Below are positions 4,164 through 22,624 of a stretch of 41,312 nt of DNA, in pieces. Under the pieces are notes generated by a model. That model worked only from the letters and a program-made list of their open reading frames with translations. It did no database searches and was not told the origin of the DNA. Source of the stretch: a bacterium (GTDB lineage Bacteria; UBP6; JAFGXH01); NCBI GenBank assembly GCA_027064085.1, contig JAMOQH010000103.1:1-41312 (forward strand), written 5' to 3'. Numbering within the stretch: the stretch's first letter is position 1; each line of letters begins with the position of its first letter. The position numbers and the translations under genes were made by a program.

Positions 4164-6982
4164 TTAAACTCCAAATAGTACTTTTTTTGTAATAAATTAT
4201 CTAATTCTTTTAATTTTTTCTTAAAACTTTTATTTTCTTCTGCTGGAATATATTTAACTTTCATCTTGAATTTAAATTTTATTATATTTTTATCTATTTT
4301 AAAGCTTGATTTAAAAAAAGTATTTTCTATTATTTTATTTTCAAAAGAGTAAATATTCTTTAAATTATTAAATTTAAAGTTGTATTCATAATTTATATTT
4401 GTATTGAAGTAGAAACTGTTTACTCTATTAAAACTTGGAGTAAATTTGTTTTCAAATAAATCATTGTCTTGAAATAATTTTATTATTGTAACTTTATCCT
4501 TTATTTTATTTGTTATAGTATAAGTAAACTCAGCTTTTTGATATTTAGGCCTTTTTTTATTTTTAATAATATTTGAAATTAGTTTAACAATATCATTATA
4601 GTATTGGTTTATATATCTTTCATATATAAAATTATTTAATTCGTTAAAATCTATGCTCAAATTATAGTTTACAGAACTACCATAATAAGATTCAGTATGT
4701 TTAATTTCTAAATCATTATTTTTATTATTATATATAAAAATTTTTTTTATAAGATTATTTTCTTTAATTTTTAATGTTTTTATTTCCTTTTTAGAGTTTA
4801 AGATTAAAATTTTACTATTTATATCGGCTTTAGGTAAATAAGAATATGGAGTTGTTTTATTTGTTAAATCTAAAAACTTATTAAGTTTGGGAATATATAC
4901 TATTGCATGATTAAAATAACTATAAGATGGGATATCAAAATTATATATTCCAAAATCATTTGTTGAAACAAGAACAAGTTTTACATCAATATTAAAGATT
5001 TTTAATATGTTTAAAAACAATAAAGCTCTATCTTTACAGTCTCCATATTTATTTTCAAAAACAGCATTGGGGCTATATGGTTTATAGGAATGTATTCCTA
5101 ATTCTATTCCAACATAATGAATATTATCTAGTATGTAAGCATAGAAGAATTTTATAATCTCTTCTTTATCATTTAATTGTTTCTTTTTTACTAATTTTTT
5201 AAAATATTTAATGTTTTTTAGGCTTAATTTGTAGCTTTTATCAAAAATTATATTCTGAAACCATGATTTTACTTCATCCCAATTTGAAAAATTAGAAACT
5301 GAAATATAAGCCTCTTCTTTATATGAAAAATAGTAATATGGCTCATTGATAAACTGCTTTAAGTTTTCTCCCCAAAAAGTAATTATCTTATAATAGTTTT
5401 TTTTAGACTTAGTTACTGTTTTTTTTAGATAATTTTTATTAAAAGCTATGTTTAATTTTATGTTTTTAGGATATTTGATTGAATATTTATAGGAAACTAT
5501 ATCTGATTTAGGTTTTATATTTTCAAGAATAGAAATCTTATTTTTAAAGTAATTTCTTTTTTTAGTACTTTTAATTTTATAATGAATATAAAAAATATCC
5601 CCTTTTTGCAAATATTGCTTTAGGTTAAATTTAAGTATTTTCATATCTGAATAGAGGCCGTCATACTCATAAGGAATAACTAAGTCATAATCATTTATTT
5701 TAATTATTTCTCCATCATTTCTATAAATATAACTATCATTTATATCAAGGATTTCTTCATCTTCAATATAGAGTATTTCATAAAATAAGTTTTTTATATC
5801 TGTATTTGCAAAATATATAGCTTCTTTTTGTTCTATTGTATAGCCCATTTTTTTATTTAAAATTATATTTTTAGTTGTTTTTAATATTTTATTTTCGTTA
5901 TTTAATTCTTTTTGAGATAAACTATTTAATTCTTTTTTAAAAAAGTTATCGCTATATGTTTTTTCTTTGTTAGATAATAACTTGTATAGATTTTGAGCTT
6001 CAGAGATTTTAATATTTAATAAAATTGCAGGATTTTTTAATAACTCTCCAATTGATAATTTAGTTATTTGATATAATAAATATGGATTCTTTTTAGTGAA
6101 AGGATATAATTTGATAATGTCAATAAATCCTTTTGTATTTCTAAAGAATTCATTCCATGTTATTATTTGAGAAAATATTCTTACTGATTTAGGATGTAAA
6201 TTAACTAGTTTTAATATTTTTTTTATTGCTGTTTTATATTCTAGTTTTTTAAATTTTTCTATTAATCTATCAATATGAAATTTATTGTTTAAAAAATAGT
6301 TGTCAATTAAATCTGTATTTAAATTATTTTCTATAAAATCATCTTCATAATATAATAATACACCAAGATTATTTTTATTTTTATTATAAACTTCTTTAAT
6401 TAATTTTTGATATTTTAAATAATCATTAGTTTTAAGTTCTTCTATCAAAAAAGGTAAAGTTAAAAAAATATCAAATTTATTTAATGATTTTAATTTTTTT
6501 TTAAATTCAATTTGATTATCAATTCTTTGGTAGTATTTTAGCTCAAAGTAATCTTTTATAATAGCTTGTTTTATATTCATAATAAAATTATATCTTTCTT
6601 TATTTCTTTTTATTTTATTATATTGATATAATAAATTTAATAAGGGGTAATTAAGAGCTTTTTGTAGTTTTATTTTTTTATTATTTTTAACTTTAATTTT
6701 AAGCTTATTAAATAATAAAAAATCTTTATTAAAATAATATAATTTATTAATCACATAAATATCTTCCTTAGAGTAATATTTTGCCGTTTTCACAGGATAA
6801 GACATCGCCGTTTTCACAGGATAAGGCATCGCCGTTTTCACAGGATAAGGCATCGCCTTATCCTTACGGCTATATGCCTTTATGAGGTAGTTTTGGTATA
6901 TATTGGATGAATAATCATAATTTTTTCCAAAAATAATAATATTTTGGAGTAAAAATACAATAATAATAAATTTTCTAATCAT
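4160..6982 (-). CDS. Exported DUF3857/transglutaminase-like protein (940 aa)
   Basis: An N-terminal signal peptide (IRKFIIIVFLLQNIIIFG, cleavage near residue 19-20) is followed by an octapeptide array AMPYPVKT x3 (residues 43-66). A long Lys/Asn-rich helical region that could be repeat-like spans about 70-370. A DUF3857-type beta domain spans about 380-580, and a transglutaminase-like fold about 605-715 with a complete triad: Cys649 (YGDCKDRA), His692 (FNHAIVYI) and Asp705 (FLDLTNKT). A C-terminal beta region follows. Proteins with this domain order are periplasmic or surface proteins of Bacteroidota and delta-type bacteria; substrates are unknown. It starts 6 nt after xerC and overlaps the glycosylase gene. 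Composition is extremely AT-rich except for the repeat array. Confidence 0.85.
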   Translation of the reverse strand: MIRKFIIIVFLLQNIIIFGKNYDYSSNIYQNYLIKAYSRKDKAMPYPVKTAMPYPVKTAMSYPVKTAKYYSKEDIYVINKLYYFNKDFLLFNKLKIKVKNNKKIKLQKALNYPLLNLLYQYNKIKRNKERYNFIMNIKQAIIKDYFELKYYQRIDNQIEFKKKLKSLNKFDIFLTLPFLIEELKTNDYLKYQKLIKEVYNKNKNNLGVLLYYEDDFIENNLNTDLIDNYFLNNKFHIDRLIEKFKKLEYKTAIKKILKLVNLHPKSVRIFSQIITWNEFFRNTKGFIDIIKLYPFTKKNPYLLYQITKLSIGELLKNPAILLNIKISEAQNLYKLLSNKEKTYSDNFFKKELNSLSQKELNNENKILKTTKNIILNKKMGYTIEQKEAIYFANTDIKNLFYEILYIEDEEILDINDSYIYRNDGEIIKINDYDLVIPYEYDGLYSDMKILKFNLKQYLQKGDIFYIHYKIKSTKKRNYFKNKISILENIKPKSDIVSYKYSIKYPKNIKLNIAFNKNYLKKTVTKSKKNYYKIITFWGENLKQFINEPYYYFSYKEEAYISVSNFSNWDEVKSWFQNIIFDKSYKLSLKNIKYFKKLVKKKQLNDKEEIIKFFYAYILDNIHYVGIELGIHSYKPYSPNAVFENKYGDCKDRALLFLNILKIFNIDVKLVLVSTNDFGIYNFDIPSYSYFNHAIVYIPKLNKFLDLTNKTTPYSYLPKADINSKILILNSKKEIKTLKIKENNLIKKIFIYNNKNNDLEIKHTESYYGSSVNYNLSIDFNELNNFIYERYINQYYNDIVKLISNIIKNKKRPKYQKAEFTYTITNKIKDKVTIIKLFQDNDLFENKFTPSFNRVNSFYFNTNINYEYNFKFNNLKNIYSFENKIIENTFFKSSFKIDKNIIKFKFKMKVKYIPAEENKSFKKKLKELDNLLQKKYYLEFK
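6783..6854. repeat. 24-bp tandem repeat (3 copies) in the transglutaminase-like gene
   Basis: Three consecutive 24-bp units begin at 6783, 6807 and 6831; the first differs by one base, which gives Ser instead of Pro. They encode AMPYPVKT. The unit is distinctly GC-richer than its surroundings. Its end forms a perfect inverted repeat with the adjoining bases (GGATAAGGC ATC GCCTTATCC, 6843-6863). Confidence 0.9.
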
Positions 6983-15879: not shown

Positions 15880-16647
15880 TTATTGTTGCCTATTTAATAT
15901 ATATGGATTCCTTTGAACTGTTGGCATGATAAGTGCATGTTGTATTGAAACATGGGCTGGAGCCTTTAAAACATAAATTATTAAATCTGCAATATCTTCT
16001 GCTGAAAGAGGAGTGTAGCCTTCATATACCTTTTTAGCTTTTTCTGTATCTCCATGATATCTAACAATAGAAAATTCCGTTTCTATTGCTCCTGGAGCGA
16101 TATTACTTACTCTTACCATTGTTCCCTGTAAATCAATATTCATGCCTTCTGAAATACTATGAACTGCTGATTTTGTAGCACAGTAAACATTGCCATTTGG
16201 GTAAGTCATTATTCCTGCAATACTTCCAAGGTTTATAATATCTCCAGTATTTCTTTTTTTCATTTGTTCAATAATAGGCTTACTTATATATAAAAGTCCC
16301 TTAATATTCGTGTCTATCATTTTATCCCAATCATCATAGCTTCCTGCATAAATTGGGTCAACTCCTGATGCTAAACCTGCACTGTTTATAAGTATATCAA
16401 CATCTTTATTTTTCAAGTATTCACTTATTGTAGAAAATGTTTTATCTCTATTTCTGATATCAAGTAAAATAATATCAATTTTTACATTAAATTTTTCAAG
16501 CTCTTTTTTTAGTTCATTTAATTTATTTTCTCTTCTTGCAACTAAAGTAAGATTTACCCCTTCTTGAGCTAGTTGCAAAGCTGTTGCCCTACCTATTCCT
16601 GCACTCGCACCTGTCACAAGAGCTTGTTTTCCTTTTAATGATTGCAT
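15880..16647 (-). CDS. Classical short-chain dehydrogenase/reductase (YdfG-like)
   Basis: This 255-aa NAD(P)-dependent oxidoreductase has TGASAGIG at 12-19 (nucleotide binding; the Arg-Arg after the second strand, VARRE, suggests NADP), NSAG at 88-91 and Asn114. Ser142 and YCATK (Tyr155, Lys159) complete the catalytic tetrad. Sequence character is closest to the YdfG group that oxidises serine or 3-hydroxy acids; the substrate cannot be fixed from sequence. It has its own promoter and AGGAGG site. A rearranged miniature of this gene with the same promoter lies at 21124-21346. Confidence 0.88.
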   Translation of the reverse strand: MQSLKGKQALVTGASAGIGRATALQLAQEGVNLTLVARRENKLNELKKELEKFNVKIDIILLDIRNRDKTFSTISEYLKNKDVDILINSAGLASGVDPIYAGSYDDWDKMIDTNIKGLLYISKPIIEQMKKRNTGDIINLGSIAGIMTYPNGNVYCATKSAVHSISEGMNIDLQGTMVRVSNIAPGAIETEFSIVRYHGDTEKAKKVYEGYTPLSAEDIADLIIYVLKAPAHVSIQHALIMPTVQRNPYILNRQQ

Positions 16648-16765
16648 AAAAGTTCCTCCTAAAGTTTAAAATATAATAGATATTTCTTTACTTTAAGTCA
16701 AATTAGATGTAGATTTATGCTATATATAGATTTTCAGAGGCTTTATCATGAAGGAAAATAAAGAA
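16613..16765. repeat. Left 153-bp direct repeat flanking the secreted-protein cassette
   Basis: It matches 21194-21346 with 7 mismatches in 153 positions and no gaps. It holds the first 12 codons of the SDR gene, the whole divergent promoter region and the first six codons of the membrane-protein gene that is intact only on the right side. Confidence 0.95.
16673..16701 (-). promoter_or_regulatory. Promoter of the SDR gene
   Basis: On the minus strand, TTGACT (16696-16701) and TATTAT (16673-16678) have a 17-nt spacer, about 25 nt upstream of the SDR start. The repeat copy at 21254-21282 keeps both boxes. Confidence 0.7.
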
Positions 16766-16804
16766 GGAGTAGGAGATGTGTCAGGTTTTAAACTTTTCCT
16801 ATAG
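16748..16804 (+). pseudogene. Six-codon 5' stub of the 21329 membrane-protein gene
   Basis: It begins ATG AAG GAA AAT AAA GAA, identical to the start of the gene at 21329, then runs into unrelated sequence and stops after 18 codons. The promoter and AGAGG ribosome site are intact. This marks the left breakpoint of the insertion at 16765/16766. Confidence 0.8.
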
Positions 16805-16853
16805 ACAAAGCAAAAAACTTATGTATAATAAAATATTTTTAGGAATTAATATA

Positions 16854-17042
16854 TTGAAAAAGATATTATTATGTTTATTTGTTTTTCTATTTTTATTAGT
16901 TTTTTCTTCAAATTTATTGTTTGCTTCTCAAGATGCTAATCTTCAAAAACGAAGAGATTCTTTAACGAAATATATTTTAAAAAACAAATGTGCTAGAGTT
17001 TACAAGTTTACAAGTTTACAAGTTTACAAGTTGCATACTTAG
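16854..17042 (+). other. Short ORF with signal peptide, probably remnant of a secreted protein
   Basis: An in-frame TTG (AGGAA about 8 nt upstream) opens a strong signal peptide (LLCLFVFLFLLVFSSNLLFA), then about 25 residues (SQDANLQKRRDSLTKYILKN) and an octanucleotide repeat, ending after 62 codons. The frame extends upstream to 16776 without a ribosome site. It looks like the 5' end of a degraded exported-protein gene. Between its stop and the gene at 17184 I see only AT-rich sequence. Confidence 0.4.
16998..17029. repeat. Octanucleotide tandem repeat (GTTTACAA x4)
   Basis: Four perfect 8-bp units lie inside the short ORF. The unit length is not a multiple of three, so slippage would change the reading frame. 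Confidence 0.9.
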
Positions 17043-17183
17043 ATTTATTTTTCGTAAAAAAAGATCTCCAGATTATTAAAAAATTATAAAACTTTGTTGT
17101 TTATTTTTGTGTTTTGATATTTAAAATCAGAACATATTTTTTATAAGATAAGTCTTTGAAAGGCTTTTAATGGAGAAAAATAT

Positions 17184-18002
17184 ATGAAAAATTTTTTTAT
17201 TTATTTCCTATTAATGTTTCAAGTAAATATATTTTCAGATGAAACATTGGTATTTGATTATGATTCAGATAGAGATATTGTTTTAAATGCATCTGAAACA
17301 TCTGAATTAATTATTGAAGGAGTTATTACAAATATTAAAACTTATACTTACTATAAAAAGAGGAGAGACTTAATTAACTTATCTGATATAATAGTTGACA
17401 ATTTAGCTGATGTGAGGGTTATTACTGAATTAATGGTGAAAGTTTTAGATGTTTTTAAAGGAGAACCTAAAGGTGAAAATATAAAAATTTACGTAATTGG
17501 AGGATGTATACTTTTAAATGGTGAAAAGTTATGTCAAGAGGTGACTCATACTGCCTATCCATTTTTGGATATTGGGGACCAAATGATTATGGGATTAAAA
17601 CATACAGAAGATGGACATATTCTTAGCAAACTGATAGATGAATATTCTATGTGGTATAATTTTTTCCATGCTGCAATATTGCAAATACCTTCATCAAAAG
17701 ATATGATTTATACAGTAGAGGAAGCAAGGCTAAATAGAGTATTTTTGCATTTAACAAGAGAAGCCTTAAGAATACTTGAGGAAGAATTAGAATATAGTGA
17801 ACCTCCAAATAACAATAATCCTGAAGATAAAATAGATGCCGTAGATTTAGTTGATGAAGAATATGATTTACATGAAGAAGTAAGTATTGCAGATTTAATT
17901 GAAAATTATGAAACAGCATTGTTAGAGGTAGAAAGAGTTGTGGGGGAAAGAATTGACTTCGTTAATTATTTAAAAGCTAAGCTAAGGAGTATGTATGAAT
18001 AA
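17184..18002 (+). CDS. Exported accessory protein of the matrixin metalloprotease
   Basis: This 272-aa protein has a signal peptide (residues 1-18). The core (about 40-150) follows a pattern I know from proteins placed next to matrixins in myxobacteria: a strand 'EGVITNIKT', then a Thr/Val-rich strand, VLDVFKGEP, a GG-containing strand and a final FLDIGDQMIMGL. The C-terminal third is helical and acidic (EEARLNRVFLHLTREALRI). GGAG lies 8 nt before ATG. The gene overlaps the metalloprotease gene by 8 nt, so the two are translationally coupled and probably act together. Function is unknown; chaperone, inhibitor or substrate-binding partner are all possible. Confidence 0.65.
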   Translation: MKNFFIYFLLMFQVNIFSDETLVFDYDSDRDIVLNASETSELIIEGVITNIKTYTYYKKRRDLINLSDIIVDNLADVRVITELMVKVLDVFKGEPKGENIKIYVIGGCILLNGEKLCQEVTHTAYPFLDIGDQMIMGLKHTEDGHILSKLIDEYSMWYNFFHAAILQIPSSKDMIYTVEEARLNRVFLHLTREALRILEEELEYSEPPNNNNPEDKIDAVDLVDEEYDLHEEVSIADLIENYETALLEVERVVGERIDFVNYLKAKLRSMYE

Positions 18003-19524
18003 AGTAATTATATTTTTAATATTTTTAATGTTTTCCTCAACTATTTATTCCTATCAAACTTTTTGGACAAATGGTATGTGTGGCGGATATGCTGATTTTC
18101 AGATTTCTGATGAAGATGATGAACCATGGGGAGATTATTGGGAAGCAATAATTGTTGAAGCTTCAAAAAATGCTGCAAATTATTGGAATGAAGCAGGGAG
18201 TGAACATAGTTTATATTATGATGGAAGAGGGTGTGATAATCCAGAAATTGAGTACGATGATTTTTGGGTTTTAACAAGTGATATGGCATACACATATAAT
18301 TGGTTTTGGGTTTTATCTAATTGTGCACCAACAAGTTTTGCTACAATTGAAGTAAATAGAAAGGCTTTCAGTAAAGATAAAAATCAAAGATCAAGACAAA
18401 TGCAGGATACTATAACTCATGAATTTGGTCATTTATTGGGTATTGCACATTCAAATGGGAGCAATTTATTTGTAGATCATACCCTTGAAGATCGATATAA
18501 ATCTATTTTAATGAGAAATGATGGTTATAAAACGCATAGGCATCTAACAGAGGATGATAAATTTGCGGCAAGAGATTTATATGGTAGGGATGATCAAGTC
18601 TTAAAAACTAATTTATCTATGTACAAGAAAACTATTGTTGATGTTAAGGGTCAAACATATTGGAATAGTAAAAATTATAAATCTTATTCAAAGCCTCAAA
18701 TTGCTTATCAACCAAACAGTAAGAAAAGGTATACTTATATCATGACTTGGGTAAAATCATCAACACATCAAATTAATTATAAATTTATGGATGATTATTC
18801 TAAAGATATGTATGATTTAGGAAAAGCAAAGGATGGAACTGATGAAAATAATTTAGGAGTTAGACATTGGATTAATGATAGTTACACATTGTCAACTCCA
18901 TCTATTGCAGTTAGTGATGATGGAGAGAATGCTGTAATCGCATGGAAGCAAGAAAGAGCAAATAAAGAACCATATTTAGCTGATGATATATATTATGCAA
19001 TAATACCAACATCTTCACATCCTAGTAGTGATAGAGATAATCCAACTGGCAGTATAATATTTGATAATAGCGGTTTGTCTTTAGGTAGTTTTATGGCTAA
19101 AACAATGACTCCTCCTAAGGTTGTATGGATAGAAAAATGGAAGAGGTTTGTCATATTTTATACGGAATTAAATGATAGTGCTCTCTGGGATTGGAGAATA
19201 AGATATATCGTTTCTGATGATGAAAAAGGTAGTTTTTCAGCTTCTTCAAATGATAGGGTCCTGGGTAAAACAAGTTTATTTTCTAATTGGAATCCTCTTG
19301 ATGTAAATTGTCATCAAAAAAAATGGGATGGCAAAATTTTGGAAGATGCATGCTTATTGGTCTTTAATCCTATAAAGCATAGTAAAAATCTTGTTGCACC
19401 TGATTCTTTAGCAAAAATGTCTTTTAAAGTTCTTGAAATTGAAAATTTAGCTTCTACTAATTATATTGATGAAAGTCTTTATGTTATAGATCCTGTTTTG
19501 GATCCAAACCTGATCCTTTGTTAA
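17995..19524 (+). CDS. Secreted matrixin-like zinc metalloprotease (frameshifted near 3' end)
   Basis: A signal peptide covers residues 1-19. The zinc-binding site HEFGHLLGIAH is at 142-152 (ligands His142, His146, His152; base Glu143), with a plausible Met-turn Met173 in SILM; this is the metzincin/matrixin signature. After the catalytic domain (to about 200) come repeated strand units with the pattern 'PxIAxxxxxxxxxxxWxxxx' and 'KVVWIEKWKRFVIFYTE', propeller-like by eye. The frame ends at 19524 with an atypical NLILC tail. The neighbouring frame continues the same protein character from 19509 to 19784. Insertion of one C in AAACCTGATCC would give DPNPDP and restore about 597 residues. Either a real frameshift or a base error. 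Confidence 0.8.
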   Translation: MNKVIIFLIFLMFSSTIYSYQTFWTNGMCGGYADFQISDEDDEPWGDYWEAIIVEASKNAANYWNEAGSEHSLYYDGRGCDNPEIEYDDFWVLTSDMAYTYNWFWVLSNCAPTSFATIEVNRKAFSKDKNQRSRQMQDTITHEFGHLLGIAHSNGSNLFVDHTLEDRYKSILMRNDGYKTHRHLTEDDKFAARDLYGRDDQVLKTNLSMYKKTIVDVKGQTYWNSKNYKSYSKPQIAYQPNSKKRYTYIMTWVKSSTHQINYKFMDDYSKDMYDLGKAKDGTDENNLGVRHWINDSYTLSTPSIAVSDDGENAVIAWKQERANKEPYLADDIYYAIIPTSSHPSSDRDNPTGSIIFDNSGLSLGSFMAKTMTPPKVVWIEKWKRFVIFYTELNDSALWDWRIRYIVSDDEKGSFSASSNDRVLGKTSLFSNWNPLDVNCHQKKWDGKILEDACLLVFNPIKHSKNLVAPDSLAKMSFKVLEIENLASTNYIDESLYVIDPVLDPNLILC

Positions 19525-19784
19525 AGATTATTAATGATGGTGCAGGAAATAAAATTCCAGCAAATATTAATACTTTGAATAGAATAAAGAAGGCTGCTAA
19601 ACAAAGTGTTCAAAATTTGAAATTTTTTCTATACTATGATATATATAATAATGAATGGAAATTATCAAACCTAGAAGAGGAAAACTTTGATTATAATGGG
19701 TTCAATATGAAGTCAAGAACTGGTTTTTCAATGACCTTAAATAAAGATAAGAACAGATACAGATATCTTTGGATTGAGGAATAA
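19518..19784 (+). pseudogene. Out-of-frame 3' end of the metalloprotease gene
   Basis: This 88-codon segment has no ribosome site and no convincing start codon (TTG only). Its content (KFFLYYDIYNNEWKLSNLEE, then MTLNKDKNRYRYLWIEE) continues the strand repeats of the metalloprotease C-terminus. It is best read as part of that protein, shifted by one base near 19509-19512. Confidence 0.7.
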
Positions 19785-19794
19785 TGGAGTATTT

Positions 19795-20499
19795 ATGAAT
19801 AATTATAAAATTCTTATTGTTTTTATATTTTTAGGATTATTTTTATTTAATTCTTGCAAGCCTGAACTGCCTCCTAGTCAGTGGGCATGCGAGTCTCTGA
19901 ATAGAGGGCTCAGAGATGCTTTAAAGGGTAGTGGTCATCCTGTTTGCAGTGAAACAAATTTATGTGAATGGGATAGTAAAAATAATTACTGTCAGGTTAG
20001 ATATCCAGAAGCTTATATTGGACTAGTAGATAGTGGCTATTGTGAAGATGAAATTTTTGGATATTTAGATATTATTACCCCTAAAAATATATCATATTGT
20101 TCTGCGAAAGAGAGATTTGAATCTAAAGATGACTGCCCTCCTTTAAAAGATAGGGATTATAAAACAATACTTGAAACAAATACACTAGAACTTGTAACTC
20201 CTGTTTGTGCTTCTTCTTTTGCAAAAAATAAAAGGGATGCCTGCATTTACATAAATGAATTTTTTATTGAAGAATTGACTAGAAAAGATCCTGTTAATGC
20301 ACCTGCTGCAATAGAAAAGCACAAGGCTGTTTATACTGATAAAGAAAATAATTATTGCATAAATAAATATTCAAAAACTAATAATATTTATATTCAACCA
20401 TCTAATGCTTATAACTGTGTATTTAAGTATTCAAAGATTGATTTTGAAACGTTGAGCAGTCTTGCTGGTAAAGAATTAAGCTATAGCTATTGTGATTAG
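19795..20499 (+). CDS. Cysteine-rich lipoprotein
   Basis: The ATG at 19795 is chosen because GGAG lies 5-6 nt upstream; a longer TTG-initiated form would start at 19774. The signal peptide ends in lipobox LFNSC at about residue 20, so it is a predicted lipoprotein of 234 aa. The mature part contains more than ten cysteines in short motifs (CEW, YCQ, YCED, DDCPP, YCIN, NCVF, YCD), which suggests disulfides outside the cytoplasm. There is no recognised domain. It follows the metalloprotease segment by 10 nt and precedes the EGF-like lipoprotein by 13 nt, as part of one secreted cassette. Confidence 0.7.
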   Translation: MNNYKILIVFIFLGLFLFNSCKPELPPSQWACESLNRGLRDALKGSGHPVCSETNLCEWDSKNNYCQVRYPEAYIGLVDSGYCEDEIFGYLDIITPKNISYCSAKERFESKDDCPPLKDRDYKTILETNTLELVTPVCASSFAKNKRDACIYINEFFIEELTRKDPVNAPAAIEKHKAVYTDKENNYCINKYSKTNNIYIQPSNAYNCVFKYSKIDFETLSSLAGKELSYSYCD

Positions 20500-20512
20500 G
20501 AAAAGGAGGAAA

Positions 20513-21034
20513 ATGAAAAAGTTTATTTTATTACTGATTTTATCTTTTTCGATTATGCTTTCATGTGGAGGCGAAAACGACAAGAATACTTGCAAAGATA
20601 GTTCAGAATGTGAAGAGAATTACTATTGTAATGAAAATCAAGTGTGCAGTAACACTTGTGAAAATAATGAAGATTGTCTATCAAATTATTGTAATTTAGA
20701 TGGAGTTTGTGCAGAGAATCCTTGTGATAGTATTACTTGTAGTATTCATTTAAAAAAAGAATGTGTTATTGATACAGACGGAGAGGCTGAATGTAATTGC
20801 ATCTCTGGTTATCATATGGAAAATAACTCATGTGTTGATACTGATGAATGCATGGTGATGAGTAGAGCATGCCCTGAAAATACTGAATATTCTCTTTGTA
20901 TTAATTATGAAGGTACACATGAATGTGTTGATAAAGATGAGTGTGAATATAATAATGGAAATTGTGGAGATTTAAATTTATATGAGTGTATAAATAATGA
21001 ATTTGCACCTGTAACATGTATTGAAAAGCAATAA
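20513..21034 (+). CDS. EGF-like cysteine-rich lipoprotein
   Basis: The ATG at 20513 follows AAGGAGG by 4-5 nt. The lipobox IMLSC is at residues 14-18. The mature part begins with two short Cys motifs (CKDSSECEENYYCNENQVC and a second NEDCLSNYCNLDGVC unit), then EGF-like modules with the calcium-binding signature DTDEC and DKDEC. This architecture is frequent in Myxococcota surface lipoproteins and suggests calcium-dependent protein or carbohydrate contact. It is the last gene of the cassette. No terminator is evident. Confidence 0.75.
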   Translation: MKKFILLLILSFSIMLSCGGENDKNTCKDSSECEENYYCNENQVCSNTCENNEDCLSNYCNLDGVCAENPCDSITCSIHLKKECVIDTDGEAECNCISGYHMENNSCVDTDECMVMSRACPENTEYSLCINYEGTHECVDKDECEYNNGNCGDLNLYECINNEFAPVTCIEKQ

Positions 21035-21123
21035 TCTTTTAAAACTTAATAAAAACAGAAGATAATAAAAAATAATATAGAGCTAAACTACAACTTACAA
21101 CTTATTTAACGTATTGGTCTTGC

Positions 21124-21228
21124 TTATGATTTTGAATCTTTTAATTTACGAGTGGACTCCTCTAATATATATGTATTTCTCTGAACTGTAGGCGTTACAA
21201 GAGCTCGTTTTCCTTTTAGTGATTGCAT
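21124..21228 (-). pseudogene. In-frame miniature of the SDR gene (34 codons)
   Basis: The intact promoter (21254-21282), CCTCC ribosome site and ATG lead into MQSLKGKRALVT (SDR residues 1-12) fused directly to PTVQRNTYIL (SDR residues 242-251, one change), then a new 12-residue tail and stop. About 229 internal codons are missing but the frame is kept. It is the remnant of a second full SDR copy. It could still be transcribed and translated; no enzymatic function is possible. Confidence 0.8.
21163..21193. repeat. Copy of the SDR 3' end next to the right repeat
   Basis: It matches 15895-15925 (the last codons of the intact SDR gene) with 4 mismatches in 31. It proves that the duplicated block originally spanned nearly the whole SDR gene. 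Confidence 0.8.
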
Positions 21229-21346
21229 GAAAGTACCTCCTAAAGTTTAAAATATAATAAATATTTCTTTACTTTAAGTCAAATTAGATGTAGATTTACG
21301 CTATATATAGATTTTCAGAGGCTTTATCATGAAGGAAAATAAAGAA
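21194..21346. repeat. Right 153-bp direct repeat flanking the secreted-protein cassette
   Basis: Partner of 16613-16765 (146 of 153 identical). The 294-bp gap between the EGF lipoprotein and the next gene holds this repeat, the SDR miniature and about 90 bp of AT-rich sequence with nothing recognisable. Confidence 0.95.
21254..21282 (-). promoter_or_regulatory. Duplicated SDR promoter, still intact
   Basis: On the minus strand, TTGACT (21277-21282) and TATTAT (21254-21259) with a 17-nt spacer are both unchanged relative to the copy at 16673-16701. Confidence 0.65.
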
Positions 21347-22624
21347 TTTTCAGAAAAATTGTACAAACAGCAAATCATTCCTATTATTAAAGAAAATAAT
21401 GGTTTAGTTACTCCTGCTGATATTGCTTTAAAGTTAGGTTATCCTATTATACATATTAAATATGTTTTAAATAAGCTTGCTACTCAATATCTTGCTGATA
21501 TTCAACCTACTGAAAACGGAGGGTTATTATATAGATTTAATCCTACTTTAAAAGAAATAGGTAAATATAAAAAAATTATTAAAAAAATATTATCTTTAGT
21601 CTTAGCTTTTTTTACTTTTCTTTTTAAATTTTTAATTATGATAACTTTAATTGGTTATATGATTTTTTATATTTTAGTTATTGTAGGGGTAATGGTAGCT
21701 ATCACTGCAAAGGGAGATAGTGATAATAATAGTGATTTTGGTGGAGATTTTGTACTAGGGTTATTGAGAGTGATGTTTGAATTAATAGTTAATTCATTTT
21801 TCTTTTTTGGTTCAGACCCTTATGAAAAATACATGTATGCTAAAAAGAGGCCATTTTATATAAGAGTATTTTCATTTGTTTTTGGAGATGATAAAAGAGA
21901 AAGGCCATTTAATCATGATAATAATATTTTTAAGTTTTTAAAAAAATCAAAACAAATAACATTAGCACAAGCAGTTAATTTAACAGGCTTATCTGAAGAA
22001 GAAACTAGGAAGCTATTAGTTAATATGGTTGTTAAGTATAATGGAGATATAGAGGTAAATGATAATGCTGTAATTGTTTATAAGTTTGACAGTTTAGAAT
22101 TTGCAAGTGATGATAATGATAAGTTTTCTTATTCTTGGAATAGGTTAAAAAATATACCTAAACTAAACTATAACTCAAAAAAGGAAAATGTATGGATAAT
22201 TGCATTTAATATTTTTAACTTAGTAATGAGTTCTACATTTATGTATCTTTATATAAATAATGGTGGAAATTTTAATTTTAATAATATATTTGATAGTGAA
22301 ATTTTCTTTTTATATTTATATCCATTTGTGTTTTCGGGATTATTTTTTATGATTCCAATTATTAGGTTTGTAAGACTAAAATATGTGATACCTCAAGTTG
22401 AACGATATAACAATACTTTAAAAGCCTTAAAACTAATATTTTTATCAAAACACAATAATAGTTATGTTGAAACGAAGTTAATAAAATCTGGTATTGAAGA
22501 AGATTTATTTGTAAATTATCCTTCTTTATTTGTTCATGATTTTATTGATGATAAAGATGTTATAAATACAAGTAATTATGTTAATGAATTAATATCTTCT
22601 AAAGCTAAAGCTATTGATGCTTAA
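21329..22624 (+). CDS. Membrane protein with two winged-helix-like domains
   Basis: This 431-aa protein has a winged-helix-like domain at 8-70 (IIPIIKENNGLVTPADIALK and a wing GGLLYRF), then a hydrophobic TM region at about 85-125. A segment ending FSFVFGD leads to a second winged-helix-like domain at about 198-255 (ITLAQAVNLTGLSEEETRKL, wing NAVIVYKF), followed by two more TM helices at about 287-307 and 328-348. From memory this order, with the FGD motif, occurs in uncharacterised cyanobacterial and myxobacterial proteins. AGAGG lies about 7 nt before ATG. The six-codon stub at 16748 shows that this gene once neighboured the SDR gene directly. It converges with the amidohydrolase gene, 2 nt apart. 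Confidence 0.65.
   Translation: MKENKEFSEKLYKQQIIPIIKENNGLVTPADIALKLGYPIIHIKYVLNKLATQYLADIQPTENGGLLYRFNPTLKEIGKYKKIIKKILSLVLAFFTFLFKFLIMITLIGYMIFYILVIVGVMVAITAKGDSDNNSDFGGDFVLGLLRVMFELIVNSFFFFGSDPYEKYMYAKKRPFYIRVFSFVFGDDKRERPFNHDNNIFKFLKKSKQITLAQAVNLTGLSEEETRKLLVNMVVKYNGDIEVNDNAVIVYKFDSLEFASDDNDKFSYSWNRLKNIPKLNYNSKKENVWIIAFNIFNLVMSSTFMYLYINNGGNFNFNNIFDSEIFFLYLYPFVFSGLFFMIPIIRFVRLKYVIPQVERYNNTLKALKLIFLSKHNNSYVETKLIKSGIEEDLFVNYPSLFVHDFIDDKDVINTSNYVNELISSKAKAIDA

Follow-up and report, generated by a model that had tools for sequence, protein, structure and literature searches.

The locus and its genomic setting

The window, by which we mean the whole stretch of DNA that was analysed, is 41,312 bp long and represents an entire contig of a 3.65-Mb draft genome in 195 contigs (G+C 26.9%, completeness 94.7%, contamination 0.6%). 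Two genomes of the same family, both of another genus, served for comparison. Within the window an insert of about 4.4 kb, whose four main genes all read on the plus strand, lies between an SDR gene and a gene for a membrane protein that we refer to as X. The features that matter here are as follows.

15880-16647, minus strand: intact SDR gene, left copy, 255 aa (Pfam adh_short, 9.4e-49)
15895-16765, no strand: left copy of a duplicated 871-bp block, with the limits set by homology with 21163-21346
16613-16765, no strand: left 153-bp repeat, holding the SDR 5' end, the intergenic promoter region and codons 1-6 of X
16748-16765, plus strand: truncated X, codons 1-6; the insert junction follows 16765
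16776-17042, plus strand: short ORF with a signal-peptide-like segment that enters an 8-bp tandem repeat (16997-17032); probable gene fragment
17184-18002, plus strand: cargo 1, putative secreted protein, no family match
17995-19524, plus strand: cargo 2, putative secreted metzincin-like protease with the motif HEFGHLLGIAH, its frame ending early (Pfam Peptidase_M10 (matrixin), 1.7e-4, below the cut-off)
19518-19784, plus strand: 88-codon ORF that overlaps cargo 2 in a different frame and, judged from position and overlap, probably encodes its C-terminal part
19774-20499, plus strand: cargo 3, putative Cys-rich lipoprotein with an LFNSC lipobox, no family match
20492-21034, plus strand: cargo 4, putative EGF-like Cys-rich lipoprotein with an IMLSC lipobox, read from the sequence
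21163-21228, minus strand: remnant of a second SDR gene, codons 241-250 fused in frame to codons 1-12, from sequence comparison
21194-21346, no strand: right 153-bp repeat, holding the same SDR 5' end, promoter region and codons 1-6 of X
21329-22624, plus strand: X, intact membrane protein, 431 aa (no significant Pfam or NCBIfam match; 46-47% relatives in the two same-family genomes)

X seems to contain two winged-helix-like segments around transmembrane helices. A paralogue is present on G000:C69, other relatives were seen only within the same bacterial family, and scans of named genomes with X returned just two relatives, both of them metagenome bins. Elsewhere in the window, a large gene contains near its 5' end a 24-bp tandem repeat at 6783-6857 (3.1 copies, 98% matches), which appears in the protein as a repeated AMPYPVKT, and two tandem type IV pilin-like genes with 75-82% DNA identity occupy the contig end (40258-41250). 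The genome also has a ComEC gene along with type IV pilin-like genes; ComEC is widespread, and this combination is compatible with DNA uptake but does not prove competence.

The repeats and the duplicated block

The preliminary description had proposed that the insert is flanked by two direct repeats, 146/153 identical and each carrying the SDR 5' end, the promoter region and the first six codons of X. Direct comparison of 16613-16765 with 21194-21346 reproduced the coordinates, the contents and the identity exactly, with no gaps and with the seven mismatches at left-copy positions 16615, 16625, 16638, 16648, 16654, 16679 and 16718. The best match elsewhere for 190 random 153-mers from the contig was 90/153 and the best in shuffled DNA was 71/153, so that a chance origin of the match is excluded. 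A dispersed repeat, which the preliminary description had named as a finding that would refute it, is ruled out by a whole-genome search that found only two full-length copies and, as the third match, just 49 nt at 80% (E 8.8e-4).

As had been noted earlier, the SDR gene is whole only on the left, the right repeat retaining just its first 12 codons, and X is whole only on the right; on either side of the insert stands a direct repeat of a resident block, and the truncations of the two copies complement each other. The further claim that a patch beside the right repeat copies the SDR 3' end was borne out by a match of 27/31 between 21163-21193 and 15895-15925, the highest value in 2000 shuffles being 21. 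Because of this match, the block before deletion can be set at 15895-16765, or 871 bp, where about 870 bp had been estimated. Since the SDR-X junction occurs in both copies, the sequence shows that SDR and X already stood next to each other, divergently oriented, when the duplication took place.

The differences between the two repeats thin out toward X and number 0 in the final 47 bp, a weak trend with a p of about 0.04-0.07; the identity adjoining X may also stem from promoter constraint. The same 47 bp are the longest exact word common to both copies, which bears on the suspicion that the layout is an assembly chimera of two strains. A draft of 195 contigs with a repeat at the joins invites that suspicion, but repeat-mediated joining would be hard at the usual final word lengths with no longer exact word in common, the junctions lie outside the shared words and contamination is 0.6%, so we regard a chimera as quite improbable.

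Decay of the second SDR gene

Translated in frame, the right-hand remnant reads MQSLKGKRALVT-PTVQRNTYIL, that is, the two ends of an SDR with the frame kept. Because the patch at 21163-21193 corresponds to SDR codons 241-250, sequence comparison shows that the right SDR was formerly whole and has lost its middle in frame. The join VT-PTVQRN agrees with the LVTPTAQRN found near the C terminus of the relatives, and the SDR 5' end encodes ALVTGAS, so that LVT is common to both regions. A slip between two such LVT-coding stretches would yield exactly ALVT-PTVQRN, and the middle was probably lost in this way.

Between the two copies, 7 of the 21 shared SDR codons differ, five of them synonymously. 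Codons present in the right remnant include CTA4, CGA8, CCT, CAG, AGA and ACA. Judged by the codons of the relatives, TTA>CTA and CCA>CCT are changes on the right and AGA>AGG is a change on the left. The pattern would be expected if both SDR genes were still functional and under selection while they diverged, for instance in separate strains, and the right copy broke only afterwards, although an excess of synonymous changes based on 7 codons is a hint at most.

The left SDR ends in YILNRQQ, a tail of the same length as in the relatives (YITHKEL, YVIYKD), whereas the right remnant continues through 12 unrelated codons to its stop, which suggests that the right end is a breakpoint. The contrast weighs against a history in which the cargo is ancestral (rpmE-cargo-SDR-X) and a copy of the 871-bp SDR-X' block arose on the left of it, with subsequent decay of the old SDR. 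Such a history needs only a small copied block and would suit the native composition of the cargo described below, but we consider it unlikely.

The inserted genes

The products of the genes starting at 17184, 17995, 19774 and 20492 begin, as read by eye, with signal peptides or lipoboxes, and all four look secreted or lipid-anchored. This agrees with the preliminary description of four secreted or lipoprotein genes without a recombinase, and no recombinase was found among the cargo. No relative of cargo 1, 2 or 3 was found in the two same-family genomes; for cargo 4, a search of its own genome gave nothing beyond weak matches. The strand pattern of cargo 1 is reminiscent of TIMP/netrin-like OB domains; its single-sequence structure model is poor (pLDDT 41), and a sequence search against solved structures gave no match.

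The frame of the protease gene stops at 19524. Its C-terminal part is probably encoded by the overlapping frame at 19518-19784, which makes a break in the gene or a mis-assembly near that stop likely. Mutation, assembly error or frameshifting may account for the split. The split, near 19500-19520, coincides with a short hairpin-like sequence. The 8-bp repeat AGTTTACA (16997-17032) was considered as a dispersed integration site and rejected, its 21-bp pattern occurring nowhere else in three genomes.

In G+C, GC3, codon usage and dinucleotide distance the main cargo genes lie within the values spanned by the contig or near them; a foreign composition was looked for, and the values proved native-like. 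A close donor is thereby suggested, and a distant one is improbable unless the insertion happened long ago. The insert contains no replication gene, the cargo proteins match no phage families and the cargo DNA has no match in plasmid, phage and viral collections, where the donor plasmid that had been envisaged earlier was not encountered. Neither the replication, mobility or phage genes nor the matching plasmid or phage that would mark a Campbell integration of such an element was found. A transposon or insertion sequence was rejected on the grounds that there is no recombinase and that the repeat, 153-871 bp of resident genes, is too long for a target-site duplication. There is no sign that the cargo can move by itself, and nothing indicates a new mobile element.

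A possible course of events

The anatomy of the locus gives good support to its interpretation as a scar in which homologous recombination within the SDR-X block preceded an internal deletion. The recombination at this block had been part of the preliminary description and stands; the integration of a circle by a single crossover, which was the other part, fares less well. A circle carrying the cargo and the 871-bp SDR-X' block and integrated by a single (Campbell) crossover predicts precisely the layout seen, but it requires two illegitimate block ends on the circle, should leave differences to either side of the crossover, whereas the last 47 bp have none, and finds no counterpart in a plasmid or phage match or in replication or recombinase genes of the insert; we think it unlikely. 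A linear fragment, homologous at one end and joined illegitimately at X codon 6 by the other, explains the layout equally well and is slightly favoured because of the missing differences in those 47 bp next to X. The pattern of differences would fit an intergenic crossover with resident DNA beyond it on both copies, although promoter constraint could produce it too.

We therefore give a probability of roughly one half to the following reading, in which DNA from a related strain entered through one-sided SDR-X homology with an illegitimate join on the left. The starting order would have been rpmE-SDR-X, with SDR and X divergent, and the donor a related strain that carried an SDR-X pair with the cargo genes downstream. 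The right side of the incoming DNA would have recombined homologously within the SDR-X block, and its left end would have been joined illegitimately to the chromosome after codon 6 of X, by homology-facilitated illegitimate recombination or an equivalent additive insertion. The outcome would be a gain of the cargo and a second SDR, with a truncated X left behind on the left; the spare SDR would then have lost its middle in frame, and the protease gene might have begun to decay as well. The two copies, their truncations, the in-frame deletion, the breakpoints, the native-like composition and the recombinase-free insert are features of the locus, from which the donor, the direction of insertion and the one-sided homology are reconstructed. 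Neither the empty site nor the donor has been seen.

The resident order rpmE-SDR-X is itself an assumption, which the two relatives from another genus do not confirm as ancestral. Each of them has SDR and X in different neighbourhoods on separate contigs, X adjoining a TtcA-like gene, SDR lying in other contexts and prfA-rpmE elsewhere; in neither genome is SDR or X next to any of the further genes from the present locus that were tested.

Relation to known systems and significance

Illegitimate recombination aided by homology has been described in three species with natural competence and in E. coli conjugation (PMC3240628). There too, foreign DNA is added beside a single homologous anchor while its second join is illegitimate; the present case differs in being deduced from a scar only, in the additive duplication of the anchor and in its later decay. 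The effector-immunity arrays of Vibrio T6SS loci, for which displacement with orphan remnants has been proposed (PMC5361080), similarly show new genes beside a homologous anchor and orphan remnants of resident genes, but our locus has no effector-immunity genes, would reflect a single event and has an SDR as its remnant. In pneumococcus, repeat-bordered duplications arise after transformation by a different route (PMC3784515). Campbell integration and merodiploid insertion-duplication also leave direct repeats of a resident block around an insert, with one copy truncated at each end, but here the insert lacks a vector, an origin and a recombinase, and one copy is internally deleted.

The locus is a decayed insertion-duplication of an ordinary and already known kind. 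That the SDR-X block might be a recurrent entry site, at which strains of this lineage swap secreted protease and lipoprotein cassettes by homologous recombination alone, strikes us as highly improbable. Neither the scar nor the cargo changes the known picture of bacterial gene gain. The insert would contribute putative secreted proteins for which the collections searched contained no clear relatives, and the locus offers a readable case, from a low-GC lineage that has been little studied, of genes acquired with no mobile element.
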